A stretch of DNA of 64,000 nucleotides from Parvularculaceae bacterium (lineage in GTDB: Bacteria; Pseudomonadota; Alphaproteobacteria; Caulobacterales; Parvularculaceae), in the NCBI GenBank assembly GCA_021776465.1, contig JAJFFU010000113.1, forward strand, positions 1-64,000, read 5' to 3'. The translations under genes were made by a program, and so were the position numbers. Below the pieces are notes generated by a model. That model was not told where the DNA came from, did not search any database, and saw only the letters and a list, made by a program, of their open reading frames with translations. Below are positions 14,833 to 64,000 of the stretch, piece by piece. How positions within the stretch are numbered: position 1 is the first letter of the stretch; each line of letters opens with the position of its first letter.

Positions 14833-15276
14833 ATGGGTATATTGGATGATTATAGTATGAGGCGTAGTGGTCAGTTAGAGATTTATTACCAATTATCTTT
14901 TCCCGGTAACTGTTTCACTAATAATGCGAATATTTATTATGATGTTCTCGACAATGTGTTTTTTAGTGAATGTGGAGAGCCTGGAGAGGCTAATTATTCG
15001 AGCCCTGGTGGTGGATTTAGTAGGGTGTTTTTGGGTAGTATAGATTTACGGCAAATATACAATTCTGTTCAGTTGGAGGAAGGCGAATATTATTCATCAA
15101 TTTTTGATCATATGATTCGGCAAAATGATGAGTTTGAAAGAATTGCTAAGCCAATATGCGATCAATGGGCAGAAAAAAATAAAGAAACAATATTGGTGGT
15201 CCAAGACATGTTAATGGAAGGTGTTTATGATGAAAAGTTTCATCAGTACGTAGAAAAACTAAGGATTAACACGTAA
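14833..15276 (+). CDS. Hypothetical protein between the terminase genes
   Basis: ATG 14833 starts one base after the previous TGA; a GAGGTG lies upstream. The 147 residues include a DDYSMRRSGQ segment near the N-terminus that loosely recalls the shared leader motif, and many Tyr and Gly residues. TAA overlaps the large terminase ATG. Function unknown. Confidence 0.58.
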   Translation: MGILDDYSMRRSGQLEIYYQLSFPGNCFTNNANIYYDVLDNVFFSECGEPGEANYSSPGGGFSRVFLGSIDLRQIYNSVQLEEGEYYSSIFDHMIRQNDEFERIAKPICDQWAEKNKETILVVQDMLMEGVYDEKFHQYVEKLRINT

Positions 15277-18200
15277 TGAAGACCCTAAAAGACGCAACTA
15301 CTGACATTAAGGCGAGCATTCTAGCTCGCCTTGCGCAATTGCGGAAAGAAGAAGATGAACTTAATAATCAACTTATGCTCCCAGATGGGTATGAAAAGAA
15401 GATTGTTTGGGATCATAGGCCAGTAAGCCCTATAGAATTCATCAATGGCAGAGAATTCATCAATGACAAGGCCAACAGGATTTGGCCGCATGTACGAGAG
15501 GACATGGAAATCGTGTTTTCGGGCTATGGGTCTGATGGAAGATTGGATTATTCTCCTGCTGTAAATAATTTTTTTAATGTTTCGGGCTTGGGATGTCTCG
15601 CCGGATATACAGAAATTAAGATGGTTGATGGTGGGACAAAAAAAATAGAGGATATTGTTGAAAATAAGAAGGAATACATAGGAAAACAAATAATTTCTTA
15701 TGACGAAGAAACAGATGAATTTGTAAGAAATAAAATTGTAGATGCTGTTTATAGTGGCACGAAAAGAATGTACTGTCTTCATTCTGAAAAAGGGGATATA
15801 ATTCATGCAACGGCTAATCATCCGTTTTTCACAAAAGATTCTGGGTGGAAAAGGCTTGATAAACTAACAATTGAGGACGAAATTAAATTAGTGGATGGGT
15901 TTGCTAAGGTGGTTGCCATCATTGATATGGGTTACGATGACGATGTATATGATTTAACGATGGAAGCGCCTTACCATTCATTTATAGCAAATAATTTTGT
16001 TGTTCATAATTCTGGGAAGAGCGTCTCATGTTCGCTTTTCGTAGCTTATTTAACATATTGGCTACATTGCATGAGCAATCCTTATGACTATTATGACATG
16101 TATAAGACGGGTAACGTTCCTCTTATGATGTGCTTGGCTCCTACAGAACAAAAAGCACGTAAAATTGTGTATCAGAAGGCATATGCGACGATTGCAGCCA
16201 TTGATTGGTTTAGGGATAACAATTATGCCCCTGACCCACGACATAAAAATCAATTAATTTTCTATAAGAGCGGGTTTGATGTTACAAAAGCTGCCAAAAG
16301 AGAACTGACAAACCTCACGCCCTATCTAAACATTAGATTCGGGTCTGGTAAAGCACAAGCTGTTGTTGGGGAAGACCTTTATGCGTGTGTTGTAGACGAA
16401 GCGTGTTCTCCAGGCGGGTTTGAATTGCGAAATGGGGTAGATAGATGTGAAGAAATCTATGAAACAGTAGACACTCGTCGCATTTCACGCTTCGGAGAGG
16501 CGGGATTGAACATGTTTATCTCGTCAGCGGGTACAGAAGACCGTTGGCTTGAGAAGAAAGTGCAATCTATCGAGGAATGGCGGGTATTAAATGGCATAAC
16601 TGATAAAAATTCCATCACGGAAGGAATGGAGTCTGGTCATAGGTTTTATCATCGTCGAAGAGCGTCATTTGACTGCAACCCTACATATAAAGACAGTCCC
16701 AGGTTTAATTATAGGGTGGAGAAGACGACAAAAAAGGGTGCTAAAATTGTCCACGACTTAAAAATTCCCTTAGAATTCAAATCTGCCATGGAATCTGACC
16801 CAGAAAAGTTCCTGAGAGACATTTGTGCGATTCCAACAATGGCAGCACAGCCATATTTCACAGCTTGGCAGCGCGTACTGCAAAATGTTAACTATGATCG
16901 CGTAGATCCTCTCCCAGATAATGGGGAAGATAATGTAATGCCGGTATTTACGAAGGAAGATGGTACAATTGGTGCCTGGGACTTGCTTCCACCTGATTTC
17001 GTAGGCAAAGAGGGCATGCTCTATTATTGTTTCCCAAAAAACACACCTGTAATTATGAGTAATTTCCAAAGAAAGGATATTCAAGAAATTGTCTGCGGTG
17101 ACGAGGTAATAACTCATACAGGGAGTAAAAAAAAGGTTCTGGATACGTTTAGTAGACATTATAAGGGCGAATTTGTTAAAATTAAGACGCAAGGGGGGCA
17201 TGAATTTGCGCCTACTAATGATCATAAAATTTTAGTTCTTAGGAAAAACAAATGTATGTGCGGAAATTCTTTTCATTACCCAGGTTGTAAGCATGAAAAA
17301 GTAAAGTGTGAATTTAGGGAAGAAGTTCCAGATTATTCGCCTGAGTGGATAGAGGCTGGAGATATTTCCAAGGGAGATTTTTTGGTAATACCTAAATATA
17401 ATAGTGATTTCATTAGAAATATAGACGGTTTTGATTTGTGCCCAGAATTGGCTAAGTTGTGTGGGTGGTTTATGGCAGAAGGATCTTATGGGAAAGCAAA
17501 AATCAAATCTGGAGTCAAATACTACACTCTAGCCTTTACGCTTCATGAGGATGAAATAGAAGTGGCTTATGATCTTTATCGTTGTGCTAGGTTATTAGAG
17601 CCATCTGCCGAAATATGGATGAAGCCTCACCCATCAAAAAAGGCATTGGCTGTGAGAATTAAAAAAGTTCCAAGGCTAATAAGGTTCATGAGAGATCATA
17701 TTGGCGAATATAGTCATAGAAAATTTATTTCAAAAGACTTAATGTCAGCAAGCAAGGATTTTCACTTTGAATTTTTGAAATCATATTTAAATGGAGATGG
17801 GCATTATTCTCATGTGGTTTATGATGGGGGCCAGCATGGGCATCATACGTATGGGTCTACTACATCTATTAAAATGTGTGATGCTATTAGGATGCTTTTG
17901 GTAAAATATGGATTTGTTCCCTCGGAAATGAAAAAAACGTCGAAGTATGTCAAGAATGATGGAACAAATAGTGACTCTTATAGAATAGGGATACACGGGC
18001 ACAAACAACATGCTGACATGTTTGGAGGTAATTATGATCATAACATGAACGAAAGGCTTTATGGATTCAATGTTGGTGATTATTGCTATTTACCCGTGAG
18101 GGAAATTGAAAGGTATTATGATGAATGTGAGGTGTATGATATTGAAGTACAGGATGATCATTCATTTATTGTAAGTGGCGGGTTTGTTGTTCATAATTGC

Positions 18201-18875
18201 CATATCGATCTTGGTACTGGTGGGACTAGAAGTAGTGGAAGAGATGCCTGTGGCGTAAGTTTGTCGCATAGAGGTCCAGATATTATACGAGCAGATATAG
18301 CATACCCGACAGTAGTGGTAGATTTAAGTATAAGGTTTAAGGCAAGCAAGAGAAAATTAAAAACTGAGGGTGGAATTAGTCAAAGAACGGTTGATGAAAT
18401 TGATATTTCTGATGTAAGGGAGTTTATAATTAAACTTGATCGAGAAAGAGGGTTTAATTTTGCAAAAATCACATATGATGGCTTCAATTCTCTAGAAACG
18501 CTTCAAACTCTTCAAAAACTTGGATATGAGGCAGAAAGGGCTGCGTGTAACAAAGATACGTGGGATAACTGTCGTTCGTTGTGGTATGATGGGAAAATTG
18601 ATATTTTTGAGGACGAATGGCTACTGTATGAGATGTCAAAGCTAGAAGATAAGGGTGATTACGTAGATCATGGGGTTGGGGGGCATGATGACGAAGCTCA
18701 AGCTATGGCAAGAGCAGTAGAAATGGCAATTGAAGGATTTAAGCCGGATATAAAGCCGGATAGAGGTAGGCCAAGGCTTTCGCCGGCTGTCGTTAGGGTT
18801 CCAGGCGGTACACCAAGGAATAGTATGCCTAGGCCAGGTAGAAGACAGACAGGATTACCATTTTATTATCGATAA
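15276..18875 (+). CDS. terL: Terminase large subunit with two inteins
   Basis: The packaging motor ATPase and nuclease that pumps DNA into the prohead. The 1199-residue precursor carries inteins at 107-245 and 585-974; removing them leaves about 670 residues, normal for a large terminase. The Walker A motif is reconstituted only after splicing (SGLG then SGKS). Walker B is ACVVDEA, followed by a SSAGTED coupling segment. The nuclease domain begins HIDLG with the metal-binding Asp and continues to DACGVSLSH. Both inteins therefore sit in catalytic motifs. The start overlaps the upstream stop by one base. Confidence 0.93.
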   Translation: MKTLKDATTDIKASILARLAQLRKEEDELNNQLMLPDGYEKKIVWDHRPVSPIEFINGREFINDKANRIWPHVREDMEIVFSGYGSDGRLDYSPAVNNFFNVSGLGCLAGYTEIKMVDGGTKKIEDIVENKKEYIGKQIISYDEETDEFVRNKIVDAVYSGTKRMYCLHSEKGDIIHATANHPFFTKDSGWKRLDKLTIEDEIKLVDGFAKVVAIIDMGYDDDVYDLTMEAPYHSFIANNFVVHNSGKSVSCSLFVAYLTYWLHCMSNPYDYYDMYKTGNVPLMMCLAPTEQKARKIVYQKAYATIAAIDWFRDNNYAPDPRHKNQLIFYKSGFDVTKAAKRELTNLTPYLNIRFGSGKAQAVVGEDLYACVVDEACSPGGFELRNGVDRCEEIYETVDTRRISRFGEAGLNMFISSAGTEDRWLEKKVQSIEEWRVLNGITDKNSITEGMESGHRFYHRRRASFDCNPTYKDSPRFNYRVEKTTKKGAKIVHDLKIPLEFKSAMESDPEKFLRDICAIPTMAAQPYFTAWQRVLQNVNYDRVDPLPDNGEDNVMPVFTKEDGTIGAWDLLPPDFVGKEGMLYYCFPKNTPVIMSNFQRKDIQEIVCGDEVITHTGSKKKVLDTFSRHYKGEFVKIKTQGGHEFAPTNDHKILVLRKNKCMCGNSFHYPGCKHEKVKCEFREEVPDYSPEWIEAGDISKGDFLVIPKYNSDFIRNIDGFDLCPELAKLCGWFMAEGSYGKAKIKSGVKYYTLAFTLHEDEIEVAYDLYRCARLLEPSAEIWMKPHPSKKALAVRIKKVPRLIRFMRDHIGEYSHRKFISKDLMSASKDFHFEFLKSYLNGDGHYSHVVYDGGQHGHHTYGSTTSIKMCDAIRMLLVKYGFVPSEMKKTSKYVKNDGTNSDSYRIGIHGHKQHADMFGGNYDHNMNERLYGFNVGDYCYLPVREIERYYDECEVYDIEVQDDHSFIVSGGFVVHNCHIDLGTGGTRSSGRDACGVSLSHRGPDIIRADIAYPTVVVDLSIRFKASKRKLKTEGGISQRTVDEIDISDVREFIIKLDRERGFNFAKITYDGFNSLETLQTLQKLGYEAERAACNKDTWDNCRSLWYDGKIDIFEDEWLLYEMSKLEDKGDYVDHGVGGHDDEAQAMARAVEMAIEGFKPDIKPDRGRPRLSPAVVRVPGGTPRNSMPRPGRRQTGLPFYYR
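15594..16010 (+). other. Mini-intein in the terminase P-loop (139 aa)
   Basis: It starts with Cys in the block-A-like CLAGYTEIKM, has a block-B His in ATANHPFFT, and ends in SFIANNFVVHN with Ser as the next extein residue. There is no room for a homing endonuclease, so this is a minimal splicing domain. It splits the ATP-binding loop between Gly-Leu-Gly and Ser-Gly-Lys-Ser. Confidence 0.93.
17028..18197 (+). other. Intein with LAGLIDADG endonuclease in the terminase nuclease domain (390 aa)
   Basis: It starts CFPKNTPV, has a block-B-like GHEFAPTNDHK, and ends SFIVSGGFVVHN with Cys as the next extein residue. The middle has both dodecapeptide blocks of a LAGLIDADG endonuclease: LCGWFMAEGS and FLKSYLNGDG. 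It also holds a Cys-rich insert (CMCG, then HYPGCKH). It lies just before the catalytic HIDLG of the nuclease domain. The two acidic residues of the endonuclease motifs are intact. Confidence 0.93.
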
Positions 18876-61429: not shown

Positions 61430-64000
61430 ATGTATCAGTACGAAGACGTAAAAAAGAAGACATTAGAATATTTTGATAATGATGAATTGGCAACAGATGT
61501 TTGGATAGACAAATATGCATTGAGAGATAATGATGGGAGCCTTATGGAGGATGATCCCTCCATGATGCACAGAAGGCTTTCTAAGGAATTTGCACGTATA
61601 GAGAGCAAATATCCCAATCCGATGAGCGAAGAGGAAATATACGGTCTTTTAGAGGGGTTTAAATATATCGTACCGCAGGGATCTCCCATGAGCGCTATAG
61701 GCAATGATTATCAGTATCAAAGCCTCTCTAACTGTTTTGTGAAAGGAACACAAATCTATACAGAGCATGGCGGTGTGATCAATATCGAAGACGCCAAGAT
61801 TGGTGATCGAATTATTACACACAGAGGAAGATATAAGGAAATTTCTCAAATTCACGAGAATGACCTAGGGGGGAGAACTGTATATGACTTCAAGTGCTAT
61901 AAGACCCCAAATACGCAAGTTACTGAAAATCATGAGTTTTGGTCTATTACTAAAGAACAAATTGAATGGGGTGAGTCTCCGCAATGGAATAGTGTAGGCA
62001 AATTACGTAAAGGTGATTATGTAGCTATACCTAATTACTCCTATCCTGAAAGTATCGATTGCGCCATTAGGGCATTAGATATATCTGTCTTAGAATATCC
62101 AGATAAGTACTCCTTAGATGTTGGAGAGTATAAAGTAACCATGGTTACTAACTATTCAAATCACCTAGGGACAAAGTGCAAACAAAGGCACAAGAAGTCT
62201 GTAAATAAGATCTGGAGAATCAATAATGATTTTGCTTTTTTCTTAGGGCTATGGTATGGCGATGGTTGTATTTTTTCAGATCATGATGTATTGAGAGGCA
62301 TAACATTTACTTTTGGATCTCATGAAAGAGTTAGCTTGGTCGATTTTGTTGTTCGACATGGCGAAAAAATGTTTGGACTAAAAGCCGATGTAAATGATAA
62401 TAGTCATATTGATGGAACCATTCAGGTAGTGTTTCATTCGCATCTTGTTGCTCAAGTATTTAATCAGTTATTCGGTCGCGGGTGTGGTGGCAAGAAGATG
62501 GTAGAGCGCGTTAATGGTTGGAATGATGAAATGGTCATGAATTTGTTTGGCGGATTGATTTCGTCTGATGGAACAGTGACAAAAGTAGGGGATGTCAGAG
62601 TTGTACTACATAATGAGGGCCTTATTAAATCTTTCTATCATCTAGGAAGGTCAAGAGGGATGCTTTTAGGCATTTCTAATTCTGGTAAAACTTGGAGGAT
62701 AGATTGGCCAAAAAATCACGGAATTATTGATTATGTAACCAAAGAATATACTGATAATCGAGTAAAAATTGCCAGGGATGCTAAATCTAGCAGGCTCTAT
62801 TTTATAGAGATTGATGGTGTTAAATTTGTTCAGGTCACTGGAAAATCTAAGGCTCAAATTGACGATGAAAAAGTATATACTATTGGTGTTAATGGAGATC
62901 ATTCTTATTCAGTAGAGGGGTTGATTTGTAAAAATTGTTTTGTAGTGGCTCCACCAAAGGACAGCTACGGCGGCATCTGTTACACAGACCAACAGATGAT
63001 TCAGCTTATGAAACGCAGGGGTGGAGTCGGGTTCGACATTTCCAATATTCGCCCTAAGGATATGGGCGTTCTCAACGCTGCCAAGACGACAGATGGTATT
63101 TCCTGTTTCATGGAGCGATACAGCAACAGCACGCGCGAAGTGGCTCAAAAGGGCAGGCGCGGAGCACTTATGCTCACTATCGATGTCAGGCATCCAGAGA
63201 TTGAGACATTTATCAATATCAAGCGTGACTTAAAAAAGGTCACAGGTGCCAACATCAGCATTAAGGTGACAGATGATTTCATGTCTGCAGCAGTAGCAGA
63301 TAAACCTTATGTGTTACGTTGGCCTGTAAATGCCCAGGAAGATAGCGAGGCTAAAATAATGAAGACTGTCATGGCTCGCAGCATTTGGGATAAAATTATT
63401 GACAGCGCTCACTCCATGGCAGAGCCTGGAATACTGTTCTGGGACAATGTGAGGAATCAATCTCCAGCAGACGTATATGAAGGCTATGAAAGCACTTCAA
63501 CAAACCCGTGTTTTGGGCCTAATGAGTTTTTGCTAACAGACCAAGGATATAAGACATTTGAGGAATTAGAAGGTTTAGGCGAAATAACAATAATCAATAA
63601 AGATGGCGATACTGCAAAGTCTAGGGTATGGAAATCGGGGAAAAAGGAAGTTATCACACTTAAAAATAGCTTAGGTGAAGAGACAGTGTGCACACCCAAT
63701 CATGTTTGGATGACTAATGATGGCAAGGAAGTAAAAGCCCAGCATTTAAAAGGGAAAAGGCTCATGCCTTTTGTTTCACCTACCCCGCTTTATGATCAGA
63801 GTAAACATATTGTTAAACTAGGTTTTATTCAGGGTGATGGAAACCTATCTCGCCTGGACGATAATTTACATCCTGGGCATCGTGGATTTGAAATAAATAT
63901 CGGTGAAAAGGATGATGATATTCTTGACCTATTTGGCTTTAGAAGAGAGGATGGTGACGATGGGAGATCTTTCTATACTTCTGAATTTTATGAGAATTGT
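61430..64000 (+). CDS. Ribonucleotide reductase large subunit with inteins, incomplete
   Basis: The gene runs past the window end. ATG 61430 follows GAGGTG. Extein blocks: GSPMSAIGN, SNCFVVAPP (after splicing), DSYGGICYTD, KRRGGVGFDIS, TREVAQKGRRGALM and VTGANIS, with a STNPC active-site motif at the end. No ATP cone is seen, and the N-terminus and motif order resemble class II (B12-dependent) reductases, but class assignment is not certain. One full intein lies at 61733-62935 and a second begins at 63509. Reduces ribonucleotides to deoxyribonucleotides for phage DNA synthesis. Confidence 0.9.
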   Translation, partial: MYQYEDVKKKTLEYFDNDELATDVWIDKYALRDNDGSLMEDDPSMMHRRLSKEFARIESKYPNPMSEEEIYGLLEGFKYIVPQGSPMSAIGNDYQYQSLSNCFVKGTQIYTEHGGVINIEDAKIGDRIITHRGRYKEISQIHENDLGGRTVYDFKCYKTPNTQVTENHEFWSITKEQIEWGESPQWNSVGKLRKGDYVAIPNYSYPESIDCAIRALDISVLEYPDKYSLDVGEYKVTMVTNYSNHLGTKCKQRHKKSVNKIWRINNDFAFFLGLWYGDGCIFSDHDVLRGITFTFGSHERVSLVDFVVRHGEKMFGLKADVNDNSHIDGTIQVVFHSHLVAQVFNQLFGRGCGGKKMVERVNGWNDEMVMNLFGGLISSDGTVTKVGDVRVVLHNEGLIKSFYHLGRSRGMLLGISNSGKTWRIDWPKNHGIIDYVTKEYTDNRVKIARDAKSSRLYFIEIDGVKFVQVTGKSKAQIDDEKVYTIGVNGDHSYSVEGLICKNCFVVAPPKDSYGGICYTDQQMIQLMKRRGGVGFDISNIRPKDMGVLNAAKTTDGISCFMERYSNSTREVAQKGRRGALMLTIDVRHPEIETFINIKRDLKKVTGANISIKVTDDFMSAAVADKPYVLRWPVNAQEDSEAKIMKTVMARSIWDKIIDSAHSMAEPGILFWDNVRNQSPADVYEGYESTSTNPCFGPNEFLLTDQGYKTFEELEGLGEITIINKDGDTAKSRVWKSGKKEVITLKNSLGEETVCTPNHVWMTNDGKEVKAQHLKGKRLMPFVSPTPLYDQSKHIVKLGFIQGDGNLSRLDDNLHPGHRGFEINIGEKDDDILDLFGFRREDGDDGRSFYTSEFYENC
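61733..62935 (+). other. Intein with LAGLIDADG endonuclease in ribonucleotide reductase (401 aa)
   Basis: Starts CFVKGTQIYTEHGG, block B TPNTQVTENHEF, ends SYSVEGLICKN, with Cys as the next extein residue. Endonuclease dodecapeptides FFLGLWYGDG and LFGGLISSDG are present. It interrupts SLSN / CFVVAPP, at a redox-active cysteine of the enzyme. Confidence 0.93.
63509..64000 (+). other. Second intein in ribonucleotide reductase, truncated by the window end
   Basis: Starts CFGPNEFLLTDQGYKTFEEL after STSTNP, block B ETVCTPNHVWM, and first LAGLIDADG motif LGFIQGDGNLS. Its end is outside the window. Insertion is at the Cys of the STNPC active-site motif. Confidence 0.9.

Follow-up and report, generated by a model that had tools for sequence, protein, structure and literature searches.

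Two inteins at catalytic cysteines of a phage class II ribonucleotide reductase, one from a family with asparagine in place of the second LAGLIDADG acid

The ribonucleotide reductase (RNR) gene of a large phage, present in the assembly of a Parvularculaceae bacterium (GCA_021776465.1, contig JAJFFU010000113.1), is interrupted at the codons of two catalytic cysteines by elements that are probably self-splicing inteins. The window analysed here consists of the first 64,000 bases of this contig, itself 148,771 bases long and part of a 3.4-Mb bin. As far as their sequences tell, these elements are very probably two independent homing inteins, each belonging to a lineage of its own that occupies the same codon in the RNRs of other phages. 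The second has a further peculiarity, constant in every member of its family examined: asparagine stands where the second catalytic acid of a LAGLIDADG nuclease is expected. The features on which this account is built are as follows, a slash marking a junction between extein and intein.

61430..64000 in the window, continuing to 66067 on the contig, + strand: class II RNR gene (TIGR02504, translation)
61733..62935, + strand: RNR intein 1, at site 1, SLSN/C (junctions, motifs, same-site relatives)
62240..62269, + strand: LAGLIDADG motif 1 of intein 1, FLGLWYGDGC (sequence reading)
62549..62578, + strand: LAGLIDADG motif 2 of intein 1, GGLISSDGTV, acid present (sequence reading)
63509..64000 in the window, ending at 64501 on the contig, + strand: RNR intein 2, at site 2, STNP/C (Pfam, motifs)
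63836, + strand: first catalytic residue of intein 2, Asp110 (alignment)
64112 on the contig, past the window end, + strand: Asn202 of intein 2, replacing the second acid (alignment)

The RNR frame crosses the end of the window and runs without interruption over 1545 amino acids, in a translation that includes the contig sequence past 64000. Reading beyond that position had been proposed in a first-pass annotation of the window; the frame proves to extend to 66067 and intein 2 to close at 64501, only its first 492 nucleotides lying inside the window. The gene passes the NCBIfam model NrdJ_Z (TIGR02504, 443 bits for a cut-off of 400), which places it in class II, the B12-dependent enzymes, and it is also above the cut-off of Pfam Ribonuc_red_lgC. 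Intein 1 covers residues 102-502 (401 amino acids, SLSN/CFVKGT...LICKN/CFVV) and intein 2 residues 694-1024 (331 amino acids, STNP/CFGPNE...YIAHN/CGEV). The first-pass annotation had set the junctions at SLSN/CFVV and STNP/C, on cysteines of the catalytic cycle, and it was right to the residue: in phmmer alignments with the NrdJ of T. maritima (1xje), the first residue after intein 1 corresponds to Cys134 and the junction cysteine of intein 2 to Cys322, while the equivalent of Cys333 is kept too, all three being in place after splicing. We take Cys134 to be a redox cysteine and Cys322 to be the thiyl-radical cysteine of the T. maritima enzyme. The roles of the finger-loop thiyl cysteine and of a cysteine pair on strands A and F are described in the excerpt of PMC9669993 on which we draw.

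Both elements display Cys1, a block B motif (TENH in intein 1, TPNH in intein 2), a terminal asparagine (N401 and N331) and a cysteine at +1. Intein 2 has stretches above the Pfam cut-offs of Intein_splicing and LAGLIDADG_3. Intein 1, taken alone, stays under all of them (Hint_2 26.9 for 28.4 bits, Intein_splicing 22.2 for 35.8, LAGLIDADG_3 18.1 for 22.5), and it is called an intein because of its junctions and block motifs, of relatives at the same site and of the existence of empty alleles. The penultimate histidine, present in intein 2 (HN), is replaced in intein 1 (KN), as it is throughout the close site-1 family, where none of the eight distinct members has it (K, L, F, E or Q instead); splicing without this residue has been published (Chen 2000, as cited in an excerpt of PMC8772380). 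The site-1 inteins of phages LR756511 and PTm1, more distant, do have it. We may picture each intein as excising after translation through Cys1 and the terminal asparagine, the exteins being joined at a catalytic cysteine that would double as the +1 splicing nucleophile, with the consequence that only the spliced enzyme would be complete.

Searches for intein relatives covered the two RNR inteins. In viral contigs, neither intein brought up relatives when used as a single query sequence; profile scans did find them. With the profile of intein 1, ten viral loci were recovered (L112-L121, seven distinct, or eight with the window), inserted at LSN/C, LSS/C or SSN/C, and intein 1 is 41-42% identical over its full length to the site-1 inteins of two other phages. 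The profile of intein 2 recovered 36 full-length viral loci (31 distinct) at (N)P/C or one codon later, together with Nodularia phages; identity to intein 2 is about 50% for the site-2 inteins of L129-L131 and 40% for those of the Nodularia phages, and TxxH and the terminal HN are found in 36/36 viral relatives. Across these relatives the inteins are 36-53% identical to intein 2, for 16-48% in the 60-residue extein flanks (the exceptions being the downstream flanks of L129, 63%, and L130, 60%, and L151), and this greater likeness of the inteins than of the RNRs around them fits movement after the RNRs had diverged. In L151 (429-2702) the extein after the site-2 junction consists of CGI and a stop, three residues in all, and the RNR gene seems interrupted. 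Nine of the 36 hosts of the intein 2 family were scanned, and all are either class II or of undecided class: an RNR domain exceeds its cut-off in eight and stays below it in L163; L143 and L145 pass the NrdJ model, five further hosts pass the class II insertion domain, for which L163 is again under the cut-off, and L133 has the general RNR barrel only, with NrdJ as its best model, under cut-off (306 for 400). When 299 genomes from the phylum of the bin, its own among them, were searched with a profile, that genome alone matched over the full length and 14 others matched in part; a profile search of plasmids gave no match.

Weaker site-1 inteins, located by reading translations, lie in two class I enzymes, that of LR756511 (TIGR02510 above cut-off) and that, annotated as subunit alpha, of Tenacibaculum phage PTm1; a third lies in Thermobifida phage P318, whose enzyme is class II (TIGR02505 above cut-off). 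The LR756511 site-1 intein is 27% identical over 433 residues to that of L094, and in the whole-intein tree it groups with inteins of the terminase and portal genes (0.864), apart from intein 1; this counts against the idea of same-codon lineages to the extent that a single site-1 lineage across RNR classes is not apparent. LR756511.1 (L109), a 595-kb phage, has inteins at both equivalent cysteines of its class I RNR and mirrors the class II gene described here. In PTm1 (L107, 2353-5765) the frame is broken in the site-1 intein, whose end is in another frame together with the next extein; the record annotates two separate RNR genes.

The two RNR inteins of our phage share a 19-residue stretch only (E about 0.05), and in both trees, one built on whole inteins and one on splicing domains, they fall into different groups, each with its same-site relatives. 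From these relatives and the near-absence of mutual similarity it follows that they appear to have arrived separately. The first-pass annotation had taken a shared LAGLIDADG type as a sign that the inteins spread between loci of the phage or came from a common source, and had proposed comparing them with those of the terminase gene. Spread within this phage could find an argument in the likeness of RNR intein 1 to terminase intein 2 (23% over 126 residues, E about 1e-5), yet the closest relatives found for the RNR inteins, about 40-50% identical, sit in the same codon of other phages' RNRs, the phylogeny splits the two into separate groups, and the type itself is not shared by all, terminase intein 1 being a mini-intein of 139 residues with no LAGLIDADG match. 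The data thus give no support to a recent move from one gene of this phage to another, and we hold it to be most improbable. In both trees one half (0.972 and 0.956) contains RNR intein 1 together with the portal intein and terminase intein 2, and a very old common origin of these three could still lie behind their present separation.

The choice of catalytic codons can be examined in the best 80 of 87 phage loci encoding a relative of this RNR. Alleles made of extein only, which the first-pass annotation had suggested looking for, turn out to be the rule: site 1 is empty in 77/80 loci, with L086 and L094 occupied and L090 without coverage, and site 2 in 79/80, L094 being the occupied one. Insertion-site conservation was computed for the RNR sites, over 79 loci at site 1 and 80 at site 2, a table that includes the occupied loci (2/79 and 1/80). 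For stretches of 4, 6 and 8 codons, nucleotide entropy ranks 19/810, 32/808 and 70/806 at site 1 (the lowest 2-9%) and 33/810, 11/808 and 10/806 at site 2 (the lowest 1-4%); amino-acid entropy ranks 55, 75 and 65 at site 1 (the lowest 7-9%) and 46, 19 and 29 at site 2 (the lowest 2-6%) of the same totals. The view that inteins target conserved DNA is thus supported at both sites, in keeping with the general rule stated in an excerpt of PMC2814812, here examined at two sites of one phage RNR. When site 2 is occupied, the flanking codons AAY CCN TGY NNN GAR are common to 30 loci, with GCT for CCN in L157 as the sole exception (30 of 32 distinct sequences were compared, L136 and L151 being left out). 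Same-codon lineages would persist as a consequence of the fact that the DNA for a catalytic motif can hardly change.

The missing acid of intein 2 was followed through 32 distinct sequences, that is 31 viral loci and the window, five duplicates having been dropped and a separate Nodularia record excluded; six distant loci (L167-L172), with an acid in motif 2, were placed outside the family. Forty of the 331 positions are invariant, including Asp110 and Ala201-Asn202-Gly203. Asparagine at position 202 is found in 32/32 distinct sequences, 36/36 full-length loci and 2/2 free-standing nucleases, and a second scan met ANG in 44/44 loci, 38 on the same contigs as the first and six on new ones. The scan patterns, GFIQGDG and F[NY]N[EQ]IGF, do not cover Asn202, and both query sequences carried the asparagine. 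The profile of the family matches PI-PfuI of Pyrococcus furiosus (PDB 1dq3; E 2e-8), single-sequence searches of PDB giving weak matches only. We take PI-PfuI to be the intein of an RNR gene and its four compared residues to be catalytic: D149 and D173 correspond to Asp in 31/31 relatives each, K322 to Lys in 29/31, and E250 to Asn in 31/31. LAGLIDADG_3 was found in 31/31 relatives at E 0.001. A structure model of intein 2 (pLDDT 94.2, pTM 0.87) has the LAGLIDADG fold with its two motif helices, one ending at the aspartate and the other at the asparagine; its comparison with PI-PfuI (Z 18.8, rmsd 10.8 over 304) is the top one among the nuclease-bearing chains compared, and Foldseek places PI-PfuI third, after TliVMA. 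With Asn at the second helix end, we file intein 2 as a relative in the LAGLIDADG fold and not as an ordinary double-strand cutter. The second-motif acid is kept in intein 1, which has one in both motifs (GDG and SDG), in its ten relatives L112-L121 (both motifs, 10/10 loci) and in the site-2 inteins of Bacteroides phage DAC16, LR756511 and Vibrio phage VnaP.

A LAGLIDADG enzyme draws one acid from each motif helix, and the conserved substitution should stop double-strand cutting; when one acid is lost, single-strand cutting is the simplest remaining activity, as in engineered LAGLIDADG variants. Intein 1, with both acids, would cut both strands of empty alleles. Intein 2 would nick the empty RNR site on a single strand and would then home by nick-stimulated recombination. 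It is the missing acid that leads us to see in its family, tentatively and at a little under an even chance, a natural nicking LAGLIDADG homing endonuclease. We extend the same tentative credit to the wider picture, in which the family would nick the conserved AAYCCNTGYNNNGAR codons, would have spread through phage RNRs by nick-driven homing, and would live on as free-standing genes near class III RNR.

That the nuclease is in use is suggested by its conservation, the Asn-type nuclease appearing to be under as much constraint as the splicing domain. Pairwise identity over the 32 sequences averages 0.465 for the nuclease and 0.441 for the splicing domain; in the 14 closest usable overlapping pairs dN/dS is 0.13-0.38 and 0.15-0.65, respectively. 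Weight is put only on the two pairs with dS < 0.91 in both domains (nuclease 0.15 and 0.18, splicing domain 0.15 and 0.17), on account of the high nuclease dS in most pairs. Two copies exist as free-standing genes without a splicing-domain match, one between nrdD and a dUTPase gene (L164) and the other after nrdD and a putative activase gene (L165), and both keep the Asp and the Asn, which argues against a nuclease kept only to aid splicing. The nrdD gene beside the first of them (L164, 921-3920) is itself interrupted by an intein, one whose LAGLIDADG motifs are ordinary.

Several points weigh against nicking. Asn variants of LAGLIDADG enzymes lose cutting, hence the nuclease might merely bind DNA, and one that helped the splicing domain to fold would likewise be conserved. 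Nuclease dS exceeds 1 in 11/14 pairs, which makes the ratios rough. One locus, L193, among the six new contigs of the second scan, has Asn at the Asp110 position as well and seems dead, so that decay does occur, and both scans relied on GFIQGDG, a pattern by which members without the first motif are under-sampled. The 80 loci collected with the RNR as query contained no Asn-type intein. It could be supposed, then, that the Asn nuclease lost cutting long ago and has been kept for DNA binding or for the stability of the splicing domain. The absence of the second acid, the state of L193, which lacks both, and the printed example of an archaeal intein whose nuclease domain has degenerated (in an excerpt of PMC8966425) speak for such a course, which we nevertheless judge rather unlikely: the first Asp (31/31), the second Asp (31/31) and the Lys (29/31) would not be expected to remain, nor the Asp and Asn of the two free-standing copies, the constraint on the nuclease equals that on the splicing domain, and the inteins reside in very different RNRs.

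The opposite departure from nicking would have the Asn nuclease cut both strands, the missing ligand being supplied by a different residue, by a second protomer or by deamidation of Asn-Gly to Asp. Asn-Gly is the fastest deamidating pair, Gly follows the Asn in 32/32 sequences, and several polar residues of the nuclease are invariant; however, Gly follows the acid in ordinary motifs too, which deprives Asn-Gly of any special meaning, and no replacement acid appears two residues earlier, where PI-PfuI D248 corresponds to S in 28, T in 2 and G in 1 of 31. We regard double-strand cutting as unlikely, and its most picturesque form, in which the invariant Asn-Gly would mature by deamidation into the missing aspartate and make a time-delayed cutter, as very far-fetched. 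Should the family nick, it would provide natural LAGLIDADG nickases and a case of a LAGLIDADG intein that homes with no double-strand break; should it cut both strands, the two-acid rule of the LAGLIDADG family would need revision.

Site 2 is worth considering for itself, as a single stretch of RNR codons taken by several kinds of elements. Its N-P-C-x-E hosts the Asn-type family of intein 2, the LAGLIDADG inteins with acids in both motifs of DAC16, LR756511 and the class I RNR of VnaP, and two HNH inteins, in LR756501 (HNH_3 above cut-off) and in L094 (21.7 for 24.8, below), 60% identical to each other. A group I intron containing a LAGLIDADG-like frame interrupts the gene of two crAss-like phages after a 5' exon that ends in NPCG, which the reading of the exons places 6 bp from the intein insertion point; at the gathering threshold Rfam gives no intron in these two loci, the scores of 33.8 and 31.2 bits (E 1.4e-6 and 8.8e-6) being below the gathering score of 50. 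A scan of genome contigs yielded three RNR loci. In L104 (4871-5233), on a contig of a Lokiarchaeota metagenome-assembled genome, a 121-residue insert at site 2 resembles a nuclease-free intein; it matches no Pfam family and is for that reason not counted among the kinds of elements. The splicing-domain tree, which does not include VnaP, unites the Asn family with the two HNH inteins and with the site-2 inteins of DAC16 and LR756511, at a FastTree local support of 0.994, even though nuclease types differ within this group. The splits joining its non-Asn members have low values (0.108 and 0.223), too low to give an order to the exchanges of nuclease at site 2. The junction is moved by one codon, to NPC/C or NPC/S, in L142, L148, L149, L154, L158 and L208, the last read on its upstream side only; L148 is sister to L146, which uses the usual site.

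These observations bear on a regulatory interpretation, according to which the inteins would be redox switches of the RNR, splicing at redox and radical cysteines being delayed until the cell is reducing. Both junctions are indeed catalytic cysteines, and an intein in the R2 of Aquifex is reported to raise iron loading (in an excerpt of PMC8772380); but related loci do without these inteins in 77/80 and 79/80 cases, five distinct site-2 members have their junction one codon off the catalytic cysteine, and the type of nuclease at the same site varies between phages. Such a function is, in our opinion, very improbable.

The RNR gene is not the only one to be invaded in this phage, as may be seen from its other features.

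15276..18875, + strand: terminase large subunit gene, phrog_2, with two inteins (phrog match, profiles)
15594..16010, + strand: terminase intein 1, 139 amino acids, in the P-loop, GLG/SGKS (profiles, junctions)
17028..18197, + strand: terminase intein 2, 390 amino acids, YY/CHIDLGTGG (profiles, junctions)
69592-70695 on the contig (L006, 9593-10696): portal-gene intein, 368 amino acids, GQW/C...HGN/C (phrog_16240)
78340-79044 on the contig: free-standing LAGLIDADG nuclease, phrog_11023, downstream of the portal region
82306-83136 on the contig: free-standing HNH nuclease, HNH_3 above cut-off, downstream of the portal region

The first-pass count of at least four inteins in two genes stands and is exceeded, with five in three genes (RNR, terminase and portal). 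Its companion statement, that each sits at an active-site residue, is correct for both RNR inteins and too strong as a whole: after terminase intein 2 a putative Asp of the terminase nuclease is at +4, and the portal is not an enzyme. The LAGLIDADG match missing from the mini-intein is that of a Pfam scan. The penultimate residue of the portal intein is Gly. Three intein and LAGLIDADG profiles run against the 3.4-Mb bin gave matches on this contig only, and the same profiles missed RNR intein 1. A scan with the terminase exteins found no relatives; with the portal exteins it found two loci, L227 and L228, where the match lengths leave no space for an intein at the site.

That phage RNR genes harbour inteins and introns, that catalytic residues receive them and that conserved sites are preferred is known already; the Asn family is what is new. 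An excerpt of PMC3653736 describes how introns and inteins have settled repeatedly in phage RNR genes, and cites 'Lightning strikes twice: Intron-intein coincidence'; that excerpt contains no residue-level class II sites and no Asn family. Neither the Asn family nor a natural LAGLIDADG nickase was found in the open-licence literature, a scope outside which most subscription journals fall, and it is because of this search that we call the family undescribed. Isolated phages nevertheless carry it: the RnR of Nodularia phages (vB_NspS-kac65v151, vB_NpeS-2AV2 and others), on whose intein no publication was found in the same literature, has the NP/C site and the same motif-2 Asn, its 40% identity extending over the whole of intein 2. 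These RNRs belong to another branch, with flanks 25 and 29% identical (measured via L156, the trees showing its intein as near-identical to theirs), and their translations read without an intein at site 1. The HNH inteins of L094 (IMG/VR) and LR756501 share with intein 2 the NP/C site and the Hint-tree group, and differ from it in having an HNH instead of a LAGLIDADG nuclease. Finally, PI-PfuI has the same Hint and LAGLIDADG architecture and agrees at three of the four compared positions, from which our family departs by its shorter length (331 residues in intein 2 for 454) and by the asparagine that takes the place of Glu250.

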